A DNA stretch of 64,000 nt from Lawsonibacter asaccharolyticus. Its GTDB lineage: Bacteria > Bacillota > Clostridia > Oscillospirales > Oscillospiraceae. The notes under the pieces are model-generated. The model saw nothing but the letters and a program-made list of their open reading frames with translations. It searched no databases and had not been told where the DNA came from. Below are positions 7,506 through 19,175 of this stretch, piece after piece (within the stretch, counting starts at the first letter, position 1; each line of letters opens with the position of its first letter). The position numbers were made by a program, and so were the translations under genes. The stretch spans positions 1,240,001 through 1,304,000 of the forward strand of contig BFBT01000001.1 in NCBI GenBank assembly GCA_003112755.1, in the 5' to 3' direction.

Positions 7506-7599
7506 GAAGGCATAAAGCAGCAAGCAGGAAATCTTTTGATATGCTCCCTTTATGAGAGACAGTGAAAAAACAAACTGTTATCATGAAGGGAGCAATTCT

Positions 7600-8298
7600 A
7601 TGTCACAAAAAGGTAAACTAAACACAGAAGAAAAAGTCGAGATTATCAAGAAGTACCAGCAAGGGGAAATAAGCTTAGTTCAGGCGGCCCGGGATGCAGG
7701 AGTTGGGACAACGACGATTTATAGATGGAGTGCACGATATGAGACAGAAGGGGCGGCTGGATTTTTACCATATCAGAAAAATCGTGTCTATCCGCCAGAA
7801 CTAAAGTTAAAGGCGGTGCTAGAATACTTATCCGGGGTGGGAAGTCTCGAAGAAATCAGCAAAAAATATAAGTTGCGAAATGATCGTCAACTCAGCAACT
7901 GGATAAAGGTGTATAATGCTCATGGAGATTTCAACTCTACAAAGTTTTCTGGAGGAGGAAGTTACATGAAGCAAGGACGAGAAACCACATTTGAGGAACG
8001 AGTTCAAATCGTCAGGGAATGTATCGCTATAGGGAAAAACTACGGAGAAATAGCCTTAAAATACCAGGTAAGCTACCAACAAGTTCGTACTTGGACACTT
8101 CGTTTTGAACAGATGGGAGAAGCAGGATTACAAGACCGGCGTGGACAGCGCAAGAAGGACCAAACTCCCCGTACCGAGCTGGAACAGGCACAAATTGAGA
8201 TTGAGCAGCTCAAACATAAACTGTATCTGGCGGAAATGGAGAATGCACTGTTAAAAAAATTGGACGAAGTAGAGAGGAGGGATGCCTTTCAGAAGTAA
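7600..8298 (+). CDS. IS3-family transposase OrfA (double helix-turn-helix)
   Basis: 232 aa from ATG 7600. Two similar DNA-binding halves are visible: KVEIIKKYQQGEISLVQAARDAG at the start and FEERVQIVRECIAIGKNYGEIA after residue 125. A leucine zipper-like coiled coil follows (ELEQAQIEIEQLKHKLYLAE). It recognises the IS ends and, after -1 frameshifting at 8253-8259, supplies the N-terminus of the OrfAB transposase. The coiled coil ends right at the slippage site, as in IS150/IS911. Confidence 0.9.
   Translation: MSQKGKLNTEEKVEIIKKYQQGEISLVQAARDAGVGTTTIYRWSARYETEGAAGFLPYQKNRVYPPELKLKAVLEYLSGVGSLEEISKKYKLRNDRQLSNWIKVYNAHGDFNSTKFSGGGSYMKQGRETTFEERVQIVRECIAIGKNYGEIALKYQVSYQQVRTWTLRFEQMGEAGLQDRRGQRKKDQTPRTELEQAQIEIEQLKHKLYLAEMENALLKKLDEVERRDAFQK
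8253..8259 (+). promoter_or_regulatory. Programmed -1 ribosomal frameshift heptamer
   Basis: A AAA AAA in the orfA reading frame; slipping back one base enters the orfB frame, which has no suitable start codon of its own here. Confidence 0.75.
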
Positions 8299-9185
8299 GA
8301 CAACGACATACTTATATAGCCATTCGAGAGTGTCACGAAGAACAAGGGGTTGCTGTTGAGACAGCCTGTGACCTTCTTCATGTATCCCGTTCTGCTTACT
8401 ACAAATGGGCTTCCGGAAAGCTAAGCCACAGAGTAAAGGAGAACGAACAGTTGGCCGACAAGATTGAGAAAATCCATTCAGAAAGTCCAGATAAAGGTTA
8501 CCGGAGATTGAATGACGATCTGCGTCATGACCATGGTATCTATGTCAATGACAAGAGGGTGCTACGCATCTGCCGAGCCAAAGATATAAGATCCACTGTG
8601 AAGTACAATAACCGCGGCTGCACAAGGCGGGCAAAGAACCCTCAGTATCTTGCTGAAAATCTGCTGAATCGCCAATTCTATGCGGAGAAGCCGAATGAGA
8701 AATGGCTTACTGATGTGACAGAGTTCAAATGGTATGATGGCATGGAAGTACATAAACTCTATCTAAGTGCCATTCTGGATCTTTGTGACCGGCGCATCGT
8801 ATCCTATGTGCTCAGTGAGCGCAATGATAATCCACTCGTTTACAAAACCTTTGACAAAGCTGTTAAGGCGAATCCAGATGCCCACCCGCTGTTCCACAGC
8901 GATAGAGGTTTCCAATACACAGGCAGAGCCTTCCACCACAAACTCGTACAGGCTGGAATGACTCAGAGTATGTCCCGTGTGGCTCACTGCATTGACAATG
9001 GACCTATGGAAGGATTCTGGGGCATTTTGAAACGGGAACGCTATTACGGCAAGCGTTTCACCAGCAAACAGGAACTCGTGCAAATGATTGAGTGCTACAT
9101 CCGTTATTACAACACCAGAAGAGTCCAGCGTAACTTGGGTGTACTGACGCCGATAGAAAAACACAAGTTGTGCCTTGCTGCATAA
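8259..9185 (+). CDS. IS3-family transposase OrfB (DDE integrase domain), made as OrfAB
   Basis: The frame is open from before the slippage site to TAA 9185; coordinates give the part read after slipping. An HTH_21-like N-terminal region (IEKIHSESPDKGYRRL) precedes the rve domain. The catalytic triad is visible: Asp in WLTDVTEFKW, Asp in LFHSDRGFQYTG, and Glu in DNGPMEGFWGILKRERY. The C-terminus YYNTRRVQRNLGVLTPIE is typical. No ATG lies in frame before about residue 70, so independent translation is unlikely. The element looks intact and may be active. Confidence 0.9.
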   Translation: MGRSREEGCLSEVRQRHTYIAIRECHEEQGVAVETACDLLHVSRSAYYKWASGKLSHRVKENEQLADKIEKIHSESPDKGYRRLNDDLRHDHGIYVNDKRVLRICRAKDIRSTVKYNNRGCTRRAKNPQYLAENLLNRQFYAEKPNEKWLTDVTEFKWYDGMEVHKLYLSAILDLCDRRIVSYVLSERNDNPLVYKTFDKAVKANPDAHPLFHSDRGFQYTGRAFHHKLVQAGMTQSMSRVAHCIDNGPMEGFWGILKRERYYGKRFTSKQELVQMIECYIRYYNTRRVQRNLGVLTPIEKHKLCLAA

Positions 9186-11822: not shown

Positions 11823-12520
11823 TGGCTGGGGTAAGATTTGAGGATGTAGATCTTCTGGGTGCTCTTTCCCGTATCGTAGATCTTCATACCCAACATTATA
11901 AAGATGACTTTGACCTGGATAAAGAACTGATCTCAAAACTGGCTGTGTCAGACCGTTCAGAGGATAAACAGCTTCTTTGGATGTCACGCCCCTGCGGAAC
12001 CTATACCCTGCGCGAACGGGAAGTTTATCTGGATGGAAGCCATGAAAACAAAGTGTGGCGGTTTTACCAGGAACAGACAAATGATCCCGTTTTGGCTTAT
12101 GCCATCTCTTTGAAAGAAGTCAGGGACGGAAAAATATTTGGCGATCTCTATCCGCTAAATTATAGAGAACATGTGGAACGGATAAAAAAGCTGACCTGTC
12201 CAATCGGAAATGTAGCCGTTGCATTTGAGGATGGAAATGTTATCACGATTCCCTATCAGGAACGGAGACAGCTTATGAACCGGCTTATGCCAGAGCATGG
12301 AGTCCCTAAAACAATGACTTATCTGCCGGAAAATGAGCCGGAGCTGATGATGATCCTAAAACGGGAACGCTTCAAACGCAGCTATCATGCGACAGCCGGA
12401 AATCTGGAGGAATATCTTGATAAGCTGGAAAAGACCACCCTGCGGGAAAAACTCAAAAGAGCAAAGACGGTGGTTTCAACACAGGAGGTCTCATCTCATA
12501 AAAGAGGGTTGGAACGATGA
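11822..12520 (+). CDS. Conserved ICE protein of unknown function, 232 aa
   Basis: It starts in a TGATG overlap and ends in an ATGA overlap with mobC, so expression is coupled in both directions. Visible features are RSEDKQLLWMSRPCGTYTLRE and YREHVERIKKLTCPIGNV, followed by a helical, basic C-terminus (LEEYLDKLEKTTLREKLK). Similar proteins precede mobC in many Firmicutes ICEs. A role in relaxosome assembly or regulation is a guess from position only. Confidence 0.75.
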   Translation: MAGVRFEDVDLLGALSRIVDLHTQHYKDDFDLDKELISKLAVSDRSEDKQLLWMSRPCGTYTLREREVYLDGSHENKVWRFYQEQTNDPVLAYAISLKEVRDGKIFGDLYPLNYREHVERIKKLTCPIGNVAVAFEDGNVITIPYQERRQLMNRLMPEHGVPKTMTYLPENEPELMMILKRERFKRSYHATAGNLEEYLDKLEKTTLREKLKRAKTVVSTQEVSSHKRGLER

Positions 12521-12861
12521 AGGGCGGGCATAACAAAAAATCCGTCCGCGTCGAATTTGTCATGTCCGAAGCGGAGGCCGAACTGGTAAAAGAACGCATG
12601 GCGGAACTTGGCATTACCAACCTGTCGGCATATCTGCGAAAGATGGCCGTAGACGGTTACATCATTCACCTTGATATGGGAGACATTCAAGAAATGATCC
12701 GGCTTCTCCGCATTTGTTCCAATAACTTAAACCAATATACCAGACGGGCCAATGAGACCGGCAGTATTTATGCCGCAGATATAGAGGACATCCGCACCCG
12801 TCTGGACAGCCTTTGGGATGGCATGGATAAACTGATCCGGGGATTTGCAAACATTTCATAA
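12517..12861 (+). CDS. mobC: MobC-type relaxosome accessory protein
   Basis: 114 aa. The N-terminal VRVEFVMSEAEAELVKERM is a ribbon-helix-helix-like start, followed by LGITNLSAYLRKMAVDG and the C-terminal NNLNQYTRRANETGSIYAAD helix characteristic of MobC. MobC binds near oriT and helps the relaxase to nick. In an intact ICE the relaxase gene follows CD1845; here a riboflavin cargo is inserted between, and the relaxase is truncated. Confidence 0.9.
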   Translation: MKGGHNKKSVRVEFVMSEAEAELVKERMAELGITNLSAYLRKMAVDGYIIHLDMGDIQEMIRLLRICSNNLNQYTRRANETGSIYAADIEDIRTRLDSLWDGMDKLIRGFANIS

Positions 12862-13237: not shown

Positions 13238-13246
13238 GCAGATTTG

Positions 13247-13277
13247 GCGGGGCGCATAGGCAGCCCCGCTCTTTTTC
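13247..13277 (+). terminator. Terminator after the CD1845 gene
   Basis: GCGGGGC ... GCCCCGC stem with a nine-base loop, then TCTTTTTC. Confidence 0.8.
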
Positions 13278-13287
13278 TGCAATTATA

Positions 13288-13413
13288 ACTTCTCTGATTG
13301 GCGGGATTTTATTGAGAGATACAATCCCTGTTTATTATCATGCTGCCTCTTATGCCAGGGAAAAAGACGAACTGGATCAGCTTCAATGCTCATGTGTAAA
13401 AGTAACATGGTAA
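13288..13413 (+). pseudogene. Fragment of a DUF3849-like ICE protein
   Basis: A 41-codon open stretch without a start encodes TIPVYYHAASYAREKDELDQ, the N-terminal motif of DUF3849-type proteins, and then loses similarity before TAA 13413. It appears to be the end of a gene cut when the riboflavin cargo was inserted. Confidence 0.4.
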
Positions 13414-13483
13414 TTGAATTGATGGTAAGTCCCATTTCATAAAATGCAAGTTTCCGAAATATTTCCGAACTTTCTTCAACTCA

Positions 13484-13512
13484 TTGCCTCCTCAAGTAGT
13501 TGATGTTATAAT
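13484..13512 (+). promoter_or_regulatory. Promoter of the riboflavin operon
   Basis: TTGCCT (13484-13489), a 17-base spacer, then a perfect TATAAT (13507-13512), about 25 bases before the riboswitch. Confidence 0.7.
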
Positions 13513-13537
13513 TTCAGGGAAAACAACTGAATAAAAG

Positions 13538-13647
13538 TGTCTTCGGGGCAGGGTGAAATTCCCGATTGGCGGTAAAGTCCGCGAGCGTAAAACGCACGAT
13601 TTGGTGTAATTCCAAAACCAACAGTATAGTCTGGATGAAAGAAGATA
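13538..13647 (+). ncRNA. FMN riboswitch (RFN element)
   Basis: The conserved RFN core is present in order: TCTTCGGGGCAGGGTGAAAT, CCCGATTGGCGGTAAAGTCC, GGTGTAATTCCAAAACC, then ACAGTATAGTCTGGATGAAA closing with GAAGAT, which pairs back to the first stem. FMN binding normally stops expression. The target is ribU plus the riboflavin kinase fusion. A terminator-like hairpin lies between the aptamer and ribU, so control is probably by transcription attenuation. Confidence 0.95.
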
Positions 13648-13708
13648 TGGTTAGATTTCCGCAGATTTTGAGAGGGTTACTTTCTTTTCTGTGGCCTAAT
13701 TATAATGC

Positions 13709-13748
13709 TAACACCTGAAAGACATTTTTCTTTTGGGTGTTAATTTTT
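13709..13748 (+). terminator. Riboswitch-controlled terminator
   Basis: AACACCTGAAAG pairs with CTTTTGGGTGTT, followed by AATTTTTTA, just before ribU; this is the expression platform of the FMN riboswitch. Confidence 0.65.
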
Positions 13749-13768
13749 TACCACGGAGGAAAGCAATT

Positions 13769-14413
13769 ATGAGCAGTAAAACAAAAAGAATCACAGTTAT
13801 TGGTATGCTATGTGCGATCACTTATGTCACTATGGTTGTTGGCAGGATTCCTATTATTCTATTCTTAAAGTATGATCCATCCGATGTTATTGTAACTTTG
13901 GGCGGCTTTATTTGGGGGCCGATGACTTCCTGCATTGTATCTGTTATTGTAGCAACCCTTGAAATGATTACAGTAAGCGATACCGGAATATTAGGTTGTA
14001 TTATGAATATCGTACAAACACTATCTTTTGCGTGTACGGCATCTGTCATTTACAAAAAAAAGCACACTTTATCTGGTGCAGTGATTGGTCTGGCATCGGG
14101 ATGGCTAATAACGGTTATCGTTATGCTGTTGTGGAACTATTTGGTAACGCCGCTTTATATGGGGTATCCAAGAGAAGCAGTTGTAGAATTGTTACTTCCT
14201 GCCTTTCTTCCATTTAACTTATTGAAAGGTGGGTTAAATGCGTCCATTACATTTTTACTGTATAAGCCCATAGTTACCGCTTTGAGAAAAAGCGGATATG
14301 TTGCTACTTTGGAAAATGAAGCAAGACAAAAGCATACTGGTCTGCTTATGCTGGCAAGTTTTATTATAGTAACTTGTGTTTTGATTATCCTGTCAATGAA
14401 TGGGATTATATGA
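13769..14413 (+). CDS. ribU: Riboflavin ECF transporter substrate-binding subunit RibU
   Basis: 214 aa with five to six hydrophobic segments. The N-terminal half matches RibU: ITVIGMLCAITYVTMVVG, FLKYDPSDVIVTLGGFIWGP and ATLEMITVSDTGILG, where the KYDPSD loop is typical of RibU. It binds riboflavin and works with the shared ECF energising module encoded elsewhere. GGAGGA sits before ATG 13769. The upstream FMN riboswitch confirms the substrate. Its stop overlaps the start of the kinase fusion by ATGA. Confidence 0.95.
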   Translation: MSSKTKRITVIGMLCAITYVTMVVGRIPIILFLKYDPSDVIVTLGGFIWGPMTSCIVSVIVATLEMITVSDTGILGCIMNIVQTLSFACTASVIYKKKHTLSGAVIGLASGWLITVIVMLLWNYLVTPLYMGYPREAVVELLLPAFLPFNLLKGGLNASITFLLYKPIVTALRKSGYVATLENEARQKHTGLLMLASFIIVTCVLIILSMNGII

Positions 14414-15114
14414 GGATTGAAATGAAAGAAAAAATAAATGAGCCTATTTACACACTAACAGGGATCGTTATACATGGCCGAGGTATTGGAAAGCATGTGG
14501 GGACACCTACCGCAAACATAGAAATAGCAAAAAATACATTTTTGCCAAAGACAGGGGTGTATGTGGCAGATATTATTTTAAGTGACAAGATATATTATGG
14601 TGTTACCCATATTGGGACGCGCCCTACACTTGATAATGATAGCTTTGTTTCAATCGAAACACATATTTTTGATTTTGATAAGGACATATATGGGTGTACG
14701 ATAACTGTCAACCTATATAAGAAATTGAGGGAAGTCAGAAAATTTAATGAATTATCCTTGCTGTTTGAACAAATTGCGAATGACCGGACAATGGCACAAG
14801 AATTTTGGGGATTAAAGCAAACAAACCACACCTTATACATTGATGTTAACCGGCATTGTGTAATATTAGAGCAGCAGGAAGTTTATTTATCAACAAACGA
14901 ATTTGAAGTCCTTTATTTGTTACTGCAATCTCCTCAAACCACATTCACAAAAGAACAGATTTATGAACAGATTTGGCATGAACCCACAAATAACCATTTG
15001 CACGCAGTAGAAAACACGATTTTTCAAATACGAAAAAGGTTAAAACCATATTGCAAGGGACATGAGTATATAAAAACAGTAATTGGCTATGGTTATAAAT
15101 TTAATGATAATTAA
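14410..15114 (+). CDS. Riboflavin kinase fused to a PhoB/OmpR-type winged-helix DNA-binding domain
   Basis: 234 aa. Residues about 15-130 are a complete flavokinase domain of the RibF C-terminal type: GRGIGKHVGTPTANIEI (GxG loop and PTAN), GVYVAD, GVTHIGTRPT, and ETHIFDFDKDIYG with the catalytic Glu. The RibF FAD-synthetase domain is absent, so the product should be FMN only. Residues about 145-234 form a winged helix of the response-regulator type (LSTNEFEVLYLLLQS, AVENTIFQIRKRLKP, YIKTVIGYGYKF). The start in the ATGA overlap with ribU couples the two; ATG 14422 is an alternative. Archaeal RbkR and Bacillus RibR are functional parallels with other folds. It probably senses or traps flavin and regulates DNA, which is inference. 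Confidence 0.85.
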   Translation: MRIEMKEKINEPIYTLTGIVIHGRGIGKHVGTPTANIEIAKNTFLPKTGVYVADIILSDKIYYGVTHIGTRPTLDNDSFVSIETHIFDFDKDIYGCTITVNLYKKLREVRKFNELSLLFEQIANDRTMAQEFWGLKQTNHTLYIDVNRHCVILEQQEVYLSTNEFEVLYLLLQSPQTTFTKEQIYEQIWHEPTNNHLHAVENTIFQIRKRLKPYCKGHEYIKTVIGYGYKFNDN

Positions 15115-15195
15115 CAAGTCCAGCCGAGTTAACTAAAGTGCTACCACAATTTCTTTATATAGGGATGCAAATTCTAAGTTAAGGAGGTGACGAAA

Positions 15196-15651
15196 ATGGC
15201 AACCACAAGACTGATGCCTCTGCATGTAGGAAAAGGTCGGGACATCTCTACTGCGATTGCAGATATTATTGATTATGTAGAAAATCCGCAGAAAACCGAT
15301 TTTGGAAAATTCATTTATGGCTATGAGTGTGATACCCGGCTTGCTGATGCAGAGTTCCTTCTGTCCAAACGACAGTATGCAAATCTGACCGGCAGAAATC
15401 AGGGTGTGGATGATGTGATCGCCTACCATCTCCGTCAGGCATTTAAGCCCGGCGAAGTTACGCCGGAAGAAGCCAATCAGATCGGCAGGGAGCTGGCACT
15501 GAAGCTCACAAAAGGAAACCATGCCTTTGTCGTCTGCACCCATGTAGATAAGCATATAAGTAAGTTACGTAAGAAGTTGCGCTTTGAACCGGATCTTCCA
15601 AACTATATTGAGAGTGTCGCCGGGATCGGCTATAAATTTGAACATCTATAA
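15196..15651 (+). pseudogene. Relaxase N-terminus fused in frame to a response-regulator C-terminus
   Basis: AAGGAGGTGACGAAAATG gives an excellent start at 15196. The first 120 residues are an ICE relaxase (TTRLMPLHVGKGRDISTAI, YECDTRLADAEFLLSK, QAFKPGEVTPEEANQIGREL) up to HAFVVCTHVDKH, where the histidine triad should continue. From there the frame reads ISKLRKKLRFEPDLPNYIES and GIGYKF, the C-terminal winged helix of an OmpR-type regulator. The join keeps the frame, so a 151-residue hybrid could be made, but the relaxase lacks most of its histidines. A deletion between relaxase and a cargo regulator explains it. Confidence 0.85.
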
Positions 15652-17114: not shown

Positions 17115-17290
17115 TAACCATAGATCCGACCTATTCATGTGGTTTTGATAAATCCACATAGAAATTTGAACTATGGATAAATCGTAAATTTTTTGATTAG
17201 CAGCAGACAAATGACTGATGACACGGTAGAATAATGATAGGAAGTCATATCCCGGGACATTGTCTTTGTCGGCTGCAGAAAGGAGGCAAA
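17115..17290 (+). other. AT-rich spacer before the excisionase gene
   Basis: It includes the short inverted repeat ATGTGG ... CCACAT (17138-17160), possibly a binding site for the excisionase or integrase. No gene is seen. Confidence 0.35.
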
Positions 17291-17497
17291 ATGAGTCAGA
17301 CAATGAACAGTGCACCTAAAAATGTTCCTGAACAACGAACTTACAAAGTAGAGGATATTGCCGTTATGTTAAACATTGGTCGTACATCTGCTTACAGTCT
17401 TGTAAAAGAGGGACATTTCAAAATTGTACGGGTTGGTAATGCCATACGAATTTCCAAAAAATCATTTGACGAATGGTTAGACGCACAGGCGTTCTAA
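17291..17497 (+). CDS. xis: Excisionase (MerR-like helix-turn-helix)
   Basis: 68 aa from ATG 17291 after AGGAGG. TYKVEDIAVMLNIGRTSAY and LVKEGHFKIVRVGNAIRIS followed by FDEWL form the HTH_17 excisionase pattern. Such proteins bend the attachment sites to favour excision by the neighbouring integrase, which starts 20 bases downstream in the same operon. Confidence 0.9.
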   Translation: MSQTMNSAPKNVPEQRTYKVEDIAVMLNIGRTSAYSLVKEGHFKIVRVGNAIRISKKSFDEWLDAQAF

Positions 17498-17517
17498 CTT
17501 AGAAAGGAAGATCGAAT

Positions 17518-18906
17518 ATGGCATCTATTATCAAACGTAAAAAATCTTATTCCGTTGTTTATAACTATATTGATGAAAATGGAGAAACAAAACAGAAATG
17601 GGAAACCTGGCATACCCATAAAGAAGCGCTGAAACGGAAAGCGGAGGTTGAAAACCAACAGAACAATGGTACATTCCTTCCTCCGAATAATCAGAAAGTT
17701 TCAGATTTTCTGTATGATTTTGTTTCCACGTATGGGGAGAAAAAATGGGGCGTGTCTATGTATGACAGTCAAACAGCCCTGATTGCCAACTATATCAATC
17801 CGATTATCGGAGATATGGAAGTGCAAGACATTACTACCCGCGTGGTGGATAAGTATATTCAAACGCTTCAAAGGACGCCTTCTGTTTCTCGGAAGAACCG
17901 GAAAGCACGGACGGAATTTGTCACAAACTCAACGATTGAGAAAATCATCAAACTTCTACGGTGTGCTTTTAAGCAAGCTGTTCGTTGGGAATTGATTGGA
18001 AAAAATCCTTTTGACAATGTAGTCCTTCCAAAGACCGAATATAAAAAGCGCGATATTTGGGATGCTGAAACGATTCGTCTTGCTTTGGATCAGTGTACCG
18101 ACAGTAAACTGTATATTGCCATGAACCTTGCTTTTGCGTGTTCTTTGCGCATGGGGGAAATTCTTGGACTAACCTGGAAAAATGTTCATATTGAGGATGA
18201 AAACATAGCAACTGACAATGCTTATATCTACATAGAAGCAGAACTGGCACGAGCGTCCAAACAGGCGATTGAGACGTTAGGAGAAAAAGACATTTACCAT
18301 ATCTTTACTCCGTTAATGCCGAATACCAGCACCCGGATAATCCTGAAAAAACCAAAGACAGATTCCAGTATCCGTAAGGTCTGGCTGCCTAAGACAGTTG
18401 CCTATATTCTTCGGGAATGGAAAAAATCGCAGGAAGAATTAAAAAGTTTTCTTGGTGATGAATATCAGGACTTCGATTTAGTGGTAGCACTGCCAAATGG
18501 CAGACCTTGTGAGAATCGGATTATTGAGAAAGAGTTTTCACTGTTGAAACAGAAAGCAGGGCTTCCAAACGTTGTATTTCACTCTTTGAGGCATTCCAGT
18601 ACGACTTACAAGCTGAAACTCAACCACGGCGATTTGAAAGCCACACAGGGCGATACAGGACATGCAGAAATAGATATGATTACGAAAGTCTATGCTCACA
18701 TTCTCGACGAGGATCGCAAGATCAACGCACAGAAATTCGAGAGCGCCTTTTATGCGGTCAACAGAGATTTAAGAAATGTGCAGCCACCGCAGGAACAGCC
18801 TCAGGCAGCAACATTAGACCTGGCCGCCTTAATCGACCAGCTTCAAAAATCTCCTGAACTAGCACAAACTCTGGCGGCGCTGATTGCAGGCCAAAAAGCG
18901 GTCTGA
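17518..18906 (+). CDS. int: Tyrosine recombinase (ICE integrase)
   Basis: 462 aa from ATG 17518 after AAAGGAAG. The N-terminal 60 residues form an AP2-like arm-binding domain (KKSYSVVYNYIDENGETKQ), followed by a SAM-like core-binding domain and the catalytic domain. Catalytic residues seen are Arg in ACSLRMGEILGL, His-x-x-Arg in FHSLRHSSTTYK, His in GDTGHAEIDM and the Tyr nucleophile in KVYAHI. The C-terminus has an extra helical tail. It faces the tRNA-Arg(CCT) 195 bases away, its likely target. The gene looks intact. Confidence 0.95.
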   Translation: MASIIKRKKSYSVVYNYIDENGETKQKWETWHTHKEALKRKAEVENQQNNGTFLPPNNQKVSDFLYDFVSTYGEKKWGVSMYDSQTALIANYINPIIGDMEVQDITTRVVDKYIQTLQRTPSVSRKNRKARTEFVTNSTIEKIIKLLRCAFKQAVRWELIGKNPFDNVVLPKTEYKKRDIWDAETIRLALDQCTDSKLYIAMNLAFACSLRMGEILGLTWKNVHIEDENIATDNAYIYIEAELARASKQAIETLGEKDIYHIFTPLMPNTSTRIILKKPKTDSSIRKVWLPKTVAYILREWKKSQEELKSFLGDEYQDFDLVVALPNGRPCENRIIEKEFSLLKQKAGLPNVVFHSLRHSSTTYKLKLNHGDLKATQGDTGHAEIDMITKVYAHILDEDRKINAQKFESAFYAVNRDLRNVQPPQEQPQAATLDLAALIDQLQKSPELAQTLAALIAGQKAV

Positions 18907-19100: not shown

Positions 19101-19175
19101 TGGCACCCCCGGCGGGAATCGAACCCACAATTTACCCTTAGGAGGGGTATGTTATATCCATTTAACTACGGAGGC
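19101..19175 (-). tRNA. tRNA-Arg (anticodon CCT), complete, CCA encoded
   Basis: A full cloverleaf can be drawn: acceptor GCCTCCG with CGGGGGT (G-U allowed), D arm GTTAAATGGATATAAC, anticodon stem TACCC/GGGTA around loop CTCCTAA, T arm GTGGGTTCGATTCCCGC, then G and CCA. The anticodon is CCT. It is AT-rich compared with the neighbouring tRNA halves, so it may be carried or restored by the element. Its 3' half faces the integrase, marking the attachment site. Confidence 0.9.

Follow-up and report, generated by a model that had tools for sequence, protein, structure and literature searches.

A putative flavin-responsive regulator made of a riboflavin kinase-type domain and a PhoB-type winged helix, encoded with ribU behind an FMN riboswitch

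The window analysed here is a stretch of 64,000 nucleotides from Lawsonibacter asaccharolyticus, and on its forward strand lies a ribU operon whose second gene joins a flavokinase-type domain to a winged helix. A scan placed a sigma-70 type promoter at 13484..13512 (TTGCCT and TATAAT 17 nt apart, a TG ahead of the -10 box, 10 of 12 positions matching), the TTGC of which is conserved across loci. It is followed by an FMN riboswitch aptamer (RFN element, RF00050; 13535..13650) scoring 113.4 bits against a gathering threshold of 66.2 (E 1.2e-25), and by a likely intrinsic terminator at 13709..13748, a hairpin (13709-13742) and then a T run, which is the sole terminator-like site within 13240-15250 and the probable expression platform of the riboswitch. 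The 214-aa product of ribU (13769..14413) is the S component of an ECF riboflavin transporter (PF12822; match to the solved RibU 5kc0, E 3.3e-18), and the ribU stop codon is overlapped by the start codon of a gene for a 234-aa fusion protein (14410..15114).

Residues 14-132 of this protein (14449..14805) match the flavokinase family PF01687 with 131 bits against a Pfam cut-off of 19.6, and we propose this domain as a flavin sensor; residues 156-231 (14875..15102) are a PhoB/OmpR-type winged helix (PF00486), with the recognition helix HAVENTIFQIRKR at residues 198-210 (15001..15039). Alignment to 5a88 places a PTAN motif at residues 33-36 (14506..14517), equates T34 and N36 with T208 and N210 of the Corynebacterium ammoniagenes FAD synthetase, and makes E83 (14656..14658) the equivalent of the catalytic base E268. 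Neither an FMN adenylyltransferase domain nor a receiver (REC) domain is among the Pfam matches of the fusion, and the NCBIfam RibF models align with nothing but their own C-terminal part, below cut-off. The predicted structure of the whole protein (pTM 0.58) leaves the relative orientation of the kinase domain and the winged helix uncertain. An earlier note on this DNA had read an RFN element, ribU and a flavokinase joined to a PhoB-like winged helix from the letters alone, and the domain and RNA models confirm that reading. Among solved structures, the flavokinase domain is best matched by the C-terminal part of PDB 3op1, deposited as “Macrolide-efflux protein SP_1110”, an entry that looks like a misnamed RibF.

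The earlier note had also recommended a profile search for the same architecture, and the fusion proved to be recurrent. A protein search returned 328 homologues at E ≤1e-10, both domains being present in 114 of the 120 listed (identity 99% to 53% over the aligned part), and a second search with diverged seeds yielded further homologues. A sequencing error that joined two genes, which the note had allowed for, is rejected, as the fusion recurs in independent records, in those 114 listed homologues and at ten loci. At all ten (the window, L009, L010, L011, L067, L068, L069, L070, L100 and L130) the order is riboswitch, ribU frame, fusion; these loci are partly dependent, the window and L010 sharing more than 5 kb at 97.5% and L067, L068 and L130 having the same upstream gene. 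Two fusion-free loci scanned alongside, L056 and L129, gave no riboswitch. The PF01687 scores of the diverged members at L069, L070 and L100 are 44.9, 92.2 and 120.6 bits. Named records among the listed homologues read either “riboflavin kinase” or “winged helix-turn-helix domain-containing protein”, so that annotation hides the link between the two domains. Among the homologues are also chimeras (P0070, P0096), in which an FAD-synthetase/RibF front, or a receiver domain, is joined to the back half of the fusion.

Record titles place the family in Lachnospiraceae and related gut bacteria, where its spread is sporadic. A whole-genome search of the window's family at E 1e-40 found the fusion in 5 of its 400 genomes. 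Beyond that family it was seen in one more genome (G1103) among 398 of the phylum; in a 391-genome sample of the class, among the places listed, it was seen in the window's own genome alone. At E 1e-30 there were matches in 112 of the 391 class genomes and 43 of the 398 phylum genomes, but among those listed only the window's own and that of G1103 reach the winged-helix end, the remainder aligning chiefly to the kinase part, as RibF does. Genomes sampled around diverged members held the fusion in 1 of 13 (G1103), 1 of 1 (G068) and 1 of 20 (G339), each already known. Viral contigs gave 51 pattern stretches, with no fusion relative confirmed by profile and no operator-plus-riboswitch pattern, and among the best 20 of 35 matching phage records none covers 80% of the fusion protein. 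The 20 listed of 158 matching plasmid records include at least one close full-length match (H1, at L130) and two, H9 and H20, with more than 80% coverage at about 25% identity, the first of which carries a response regulator annotation. A faecal “Bacteriophage sp.” scaffold (L129, 5905-6249) carries a 114-aa winged-helix frame with the same recognition helix (HAVENTIFQIRK), a remnant with no kinase domain, on a stretch with no riboswitch.

Residue counts and the tree draw on homologues with ids up to P0172 plus three locus proteins. Thirteen truncated or chimeric homologues were removed by hand (P0064, P0074, P0076, P0092, P0095, P0099, P0112, P0127, P0129, P0130, P0145, P0166 and P0179), rows outside 205-262 aa were dropped, which excludes forms of 376-406 aa, and so was any row that shared 93% identity or more with one already retained, taking 109 rows to 80. 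In these 80 cleaned, non-redundant members W189, H198, N202, Q206 and R208 are identical throughout, and A199 and T203 are kept in 75 and 78; the recognition-helix contact residues are identical even at 31-39% overall protein identity. By alignment, Q206, A199, N202 and I225 stand where we take PhoB Arg201, Thr194, Val197 and Arg219 to be. In PhoB, Arg201, Thr194 and Val197 are described as contacting bases, and Arg219 as contacting bases between the half-sites (PMC3973317). The earlier note had considered homologues that all lack the contact residues; what these 80 members have is five positions without a single exception. A winged helix that is vestigial as the general case was likewise rejected, given the invariant contact residues and the conserved repeat described next.

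At 13451..13469 on the forward strand, just ahead of the promoter, lies a candidate operator, a direct repeat of the 7-bp motif TTCCGAA with a 4-bp spacer and a period of 11 bp (in full, TTTCCGAA-ATA-TTTCCGAA). The earlier note overlooked this repeat. It occurs in nine of the ten loci, each time 14 nt ahead of the -35 TTGC, and forms an island of identity in a MAFFT alignment of the ten upstream regions. With seven loci aligned on the -35 box (the window, L009, L011, L067, L130, L069 and L100, the site having been picked by pattern and L070 left out), 15 of 18 repeat columns are identical, against 0 of 47 columns upstream. The 14-nt distance holds even where the protein has diverged, in L069 (39% identity to the window protein) and L100 (53%).

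The pattern TTCCGAANNNNTTCCGAA occurs exactly once per genome in five of the six fusion genomes, always at the ribU-fusion operon, and with one mismatch allowed it is again found solely there. Two mismatches give 27 places in these five genomes, five of which belong to the module itself, compared with 10 for a reversed control, most of the excess being located in G031. Of 400 family genomes, 23 matched: four of the five with the fusion, each time about 90 nt ahead of an RFN element, and 19 of the 395 others. The reversed control matched 5 of the 400 and is thus rarer than TTCCGAANNNNTTCCGAA in non-fusion genomes, so that the 19 matches exceed chance; at none of these (L137-L155) does the fetched stretch contain a same-strand RFN motif, by a simple motif that misses some riboswitches, and with just 100 nt of DNA beyond the repeat at L148 and an RFN motif on the opposite strand at L141. 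The six fusion genomes together hold 14 FMN riboswitches. All six that are linked to a fusion have the 11-bp direct repeat (five of the TTCCGAA type, one of a CTCCG type); the other eight RFN leaders have no TTCCGAA pair, L162 having a single copy.

PhoP, of the OmpR/PhoB family, is described as requiring direct repeats of 7 bp spaced by exactly 4 bp (PMC4832192), and the conserved repeat upstream of the fusion operon matches that 7+4 layout, making it a candidate site. Its centre lies about 60 bp ahead of the likely start site, as estimated from the -10 box, and clear of the -35 box, from which we infer an activator-like position with no promoter overlap. The TTCCGAA direct repeat is probably the operator of the fusion protein.

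The tenth locus, L070, is the sole one of the ten with a differing repeat, CTCCGTTTTTCCTCCGGT (CTCCG), in which the 11-bp period is kept; the repeat stands 14 nt from TTGC in a register placed by eye. Its recognition helix differs as well (HQVENVVSQLRK): A199 is replaced by Q, T203 by V and F205 by S, and P0170 has Q, I and S at these positions. It is suggestive that operator and recognition helix covary here, at one locus and with the repeat register set by eye.

The kinase-type domain has a less uniform record. Before cleaning, 95 of 119 rows had PTAN together with E83, and two more had PTVN with E83. After cleaning, T34, N36 and E83 are all intact in 72 of 80, the window protein included. 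In the other eight, catalytic residues are altered through at least seven changes on the tree, an approximate and undirected count from a quick tree with long branches (L070, L069, P0168). The altered members are L069 (PAAG), L070 (PAAG, and E to D), L100 (E to G), P0138 (PTAG), P0054, P0118 and P0150 (PTAD) and P0113 (E to D); the drastic alterations alone come to four rows and three changes. All eight keep the five winged-helix contact residues. In the C. ammoniagenes FAD synthetase, changing T208, N210 or E268 to Ala or Asp is reported to abolish FMN formation, E268D giving traces of FAD (PMC2573891), and the Asp variants in our set may be weak rather than dead, since N210D in E. coli is reported to leave about a tenth of the activity (PMC11047187). 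R107 and D125, the equivalents of R292 and D310, which form a salt bridge over the flavin pocket, are each kept in 79 of 80. In L069 the GxxPT motif of the flavin pocket is lost too, so this member may no longer bind flavin and may sense nothing, or something else.

With residues needed for catalysis altered in eight of 80, drastically in four, catalysis is not the conserved role; the DNA-contact positions are invariant across the same set, and regulation therefore looks like the shared function. The 72 members that keep all three residues indicate that kinase activity is usually under selection too, and the window member and most others are probably still able to make FMN. The earlier proposal that flavin phosphorylation is linked to gene control, with FMN as the end product, is not supported in that form for a family in which these eight have altered residues.

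One branch of the family counts against a regulatory reading. Long forms of 376-406 aa (P0008-P0013, P0015-P0041, P0057, P0061 and P0078) make up 36 of the 120 listed homologues. In five of them (P0008, P0013, P0057 and P0078 by reading, P0015 by Pfam) the wing is missing after QIRK and an unrelated tail stands instead, and in these five the kinase domain is intact. The tail, of about 190 aa, has no match above the Pfam cut-offs and none among the plasmids. In this branch the DNA-binding part seems to have been damaged, and it may be the kinase that is retained.

The genome of the window has a full RibF (304 aa, with FAD synthetase and flavokinase domains) and one more RFN element, ahead of a gene that reads like a ribU. 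RibH was not found in five of the six fusion genomes, one of which, G068, is just 85% complete, and the RibH-less genomes are probably those of riboflavin auxotrophs dependent on uptake. With a full RibF and no RibH found, FMN synthesis need not depend on the fusion protein, and riboflavin uptake matters. According to a 2026 preprint, 49% of Lachnospiraceae are predicted auxotrophs and extra ribU paralogues occur, each of which, in two strains, is preceded by an FMN riboswitch (PMC12934955); the word “winged” is absent from that preprint.

The module appears to move as a unit. In four of nine comparisons (L009, L067, L068 and L130) the DNA held in common with the window starts at 13451 and ends at 15105, and the surroundings differ between loci. 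In the window it has mobilization genes on either side, for a NikA-like protein (12517-12861) and a truncated relaxase (15187-15651), and farther on there is a tyrosine integrase (17518-18906) beside tRNA-Arg(CCT) at 19101-19175, suggesting an integrated mobile element. That the module is carried by a mobile element had been claimed before, and the different contexts across loci, with mobilization genes adjoining here, agree with it. Several smaller features were seen in the same region. An HTH_17 protein and the integrase together span 17234-18906, adjoining the tRNA gene, and 7552-9185 holds transposase ORFs that carry rve domains and read as IS3-like. A 154-aa frame at 15187-15651 has the start of a MobA/VirD2-type relaxase (PF03432) in frame with the C-terminal 47 residues of an OmpR-type winged helix; its counterpart in L010 is 472 aa long, and by comparison this truncated relaxase is a deletion scar beside the module. 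At L130 (5350-9301), and also at L067 and L068, the module is preceded by a gene of the nitroreductase family; in L130 there is also a divergently oriented HxlR regulator, and the region is flanked by two stand-alone winged-helix proteins containing MGKFLILSV.

Taken as a whole, these observations are best explained, and we think likely so, by a one-component regulator with a kinase-derived flavin sensor and a TTCCGAA operator. The winged helix would bind the repeat at 13451-13469 as a head-to-tail dimer, just upstream of its own promoter, and the bound protein would control the ribU-fusion operon, initiation there being adjusted by whatever fills the kinase fold. The N-terminal domain, descended from riboflavin kinase, would mainly sense riboflavin or FMN (with ATP or ADP), and transcripts once started would be screened by the FMN riboswitch. 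We thus propose two flavin controls in series on one operon, a protein at the promoter and an FMN riboswitch in the leader. A shortage of flavin would lead to activation of ribU, and flavin filling the kinase fold to release; in several lineages the catalytic residues are altered and the regulatory role would remain. The comparisons support the domains, the operator-like repeat, the single target at high stringency and the repeated alteration of catalytic residues; from these we infer DNA binding, the ligand and the sign of regulation. As to the sign, we lean towards activation under flavin shortage because the site is centred at about -60, clear of the -35 box. The fuller picture, fairly probable in our view, is of a family of transcription factors in which a riboflavin kinase became a flavin sensor, with a dedicated 7+4 operator in series with an FMN riboswitch on one transcript, travelling as a 1.66-kb cassette, phosphorylation having been abandoned in several lineages and L070 having acquired a new operator along with a new recognition helix.

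Other readings use parts of the same evidence. The winged helix could autoregulate and the kinase-type domain make FMN or aid dimerization, so that control would follow from protein amount. The 72 intact active sites suit this, as does the overlap of start and stop codons, which suggests translational coupling with ribU and so makes autoregulation by amount possible. We nevertheless consider it unlikely, with catalytic residues repeatedly altered while the kinase fold stays fused and its pocket salt bridge is kept, and with a full RibF in the same genome. Alternatively, the protein could be a monofunctional riboflavin kinase whose task is to retain imported riboflavin by turning it into FMN, its winged helix a passenger picked up when the gene recombined with that of a response regulator. 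PTAN and E83 are intact in the window protein, the wing but not the kinase is lost in the long forms, and winged-helix genes are seen joined to other genes (the frame at 15187-15651; P0096). Against a passenger stand recognition-helix contacts that stay identical at low overall identity, a conserved operator-like repeat and altered active sites alongside an intact winged helix, all of which make this account improbable.

Action on the riboswitch RNA rather than on DNA has a model in the flavokinase RibR, whose reported target is the rib leader (PMC12542839), and an RFN element is present at all ten fusion loci. The C-terminal part is nevertheless a PhoB-type DNA-binding fold, and the DNA repeat that fits it is not transcribed, being located upstream of the promoter; we give RNA action very little probability. 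The repeat could also be the end of a mobile cassette, a recombinase site rather than an operator, since the DNA common to L009, L067, L068 and L130 begins exactly at 13451. Yet its 14-nt distance to the -35 box is fixed in the nine pattern loci, diverged ones included, the module contains no recombinase gene, and no TTCCGAA or TTCGGAA occurs within 15091-15400 at the right edge, which leaves a cassette end just as hard to credit as RNA action.

A regulator of the kind proposed here has relatives in principle. NnaR of actinobacteria resembles the fusion in joining an enzyme-derived domain to an OmpR-type DNA-binding domain; its Streptomyces protein is described as having no HemD activity, and Mycobacterium smegmatis as having another HemD paralogue (PMC6277429). 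It differs in its HemD-like (uroporphyrinogen-III synthase) fold and its nitrate/nitrite genes, the fusion N-terminus being PF01687, and the description used does not mention a riboswitch (PMC6277429). NrtR and BtAraR, as described, likewise set an inactive or impaired enzyme domain on a winged helix as a ligand sensor, but have a Nudix fold, other ligands and other targets (PMC4666351). The bifunctional RibF has a homologous kinase domain; in the fusion the FAD synthetase domain is absent, a winged helix is added and some members have no catalytic residues. PhoB/PhoP response regulators share the DNA-binding fold and the 7+4 direct-repeat site, which in the fusion is a candidate, and differ in their receiver domain, replaced here by the kinase fold. 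In archaea, RbkR joins a CTP-dependent riboflavin kinase to another helix-turn-helix. It regulates riboflavin genes (PMC10746257), as we propose for the fusion, but the only kinase-type Pfam match of the fusion is to the ATP-type PF01687, with a PhoB-type winged helix besides. RibR of Bacillus subtilis is a monofunctional flavokinase and takes part in regulation at an FMN riboswitch; it is described as RNA-binding, with no mention of a PhoB-type winged helix in the description available (PMC12542839).

The fusion would work like NnaR and NrtR/AraR without belonging to either family, and it is neither an RbkR nor a response regulator. The earlier claim of a “third independent way” of joining flavin phosphorylation to gene control stands for the architecture, but as a principle it has precedents in NnaR and NrtR/AraR. 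Among the papers listed from the open-access full-text literature, none was seen to describe a protein that joins a flavokinase to an OmpR/PhoB winged helix.

Control of riboflavin genes in bacteria is known mainly through the FMN riboswitch. If the reading as a flavin-sensing regulator is true, one operon would read flavin twice, by a protein at initiation and by an RNA at termination, and the two readings may be of different forms, riboflavin and FMN. The family would then be a natural series of an enzyme becoming a sensor, its catalytic residues lost several times and its DNA-contact residues kept.
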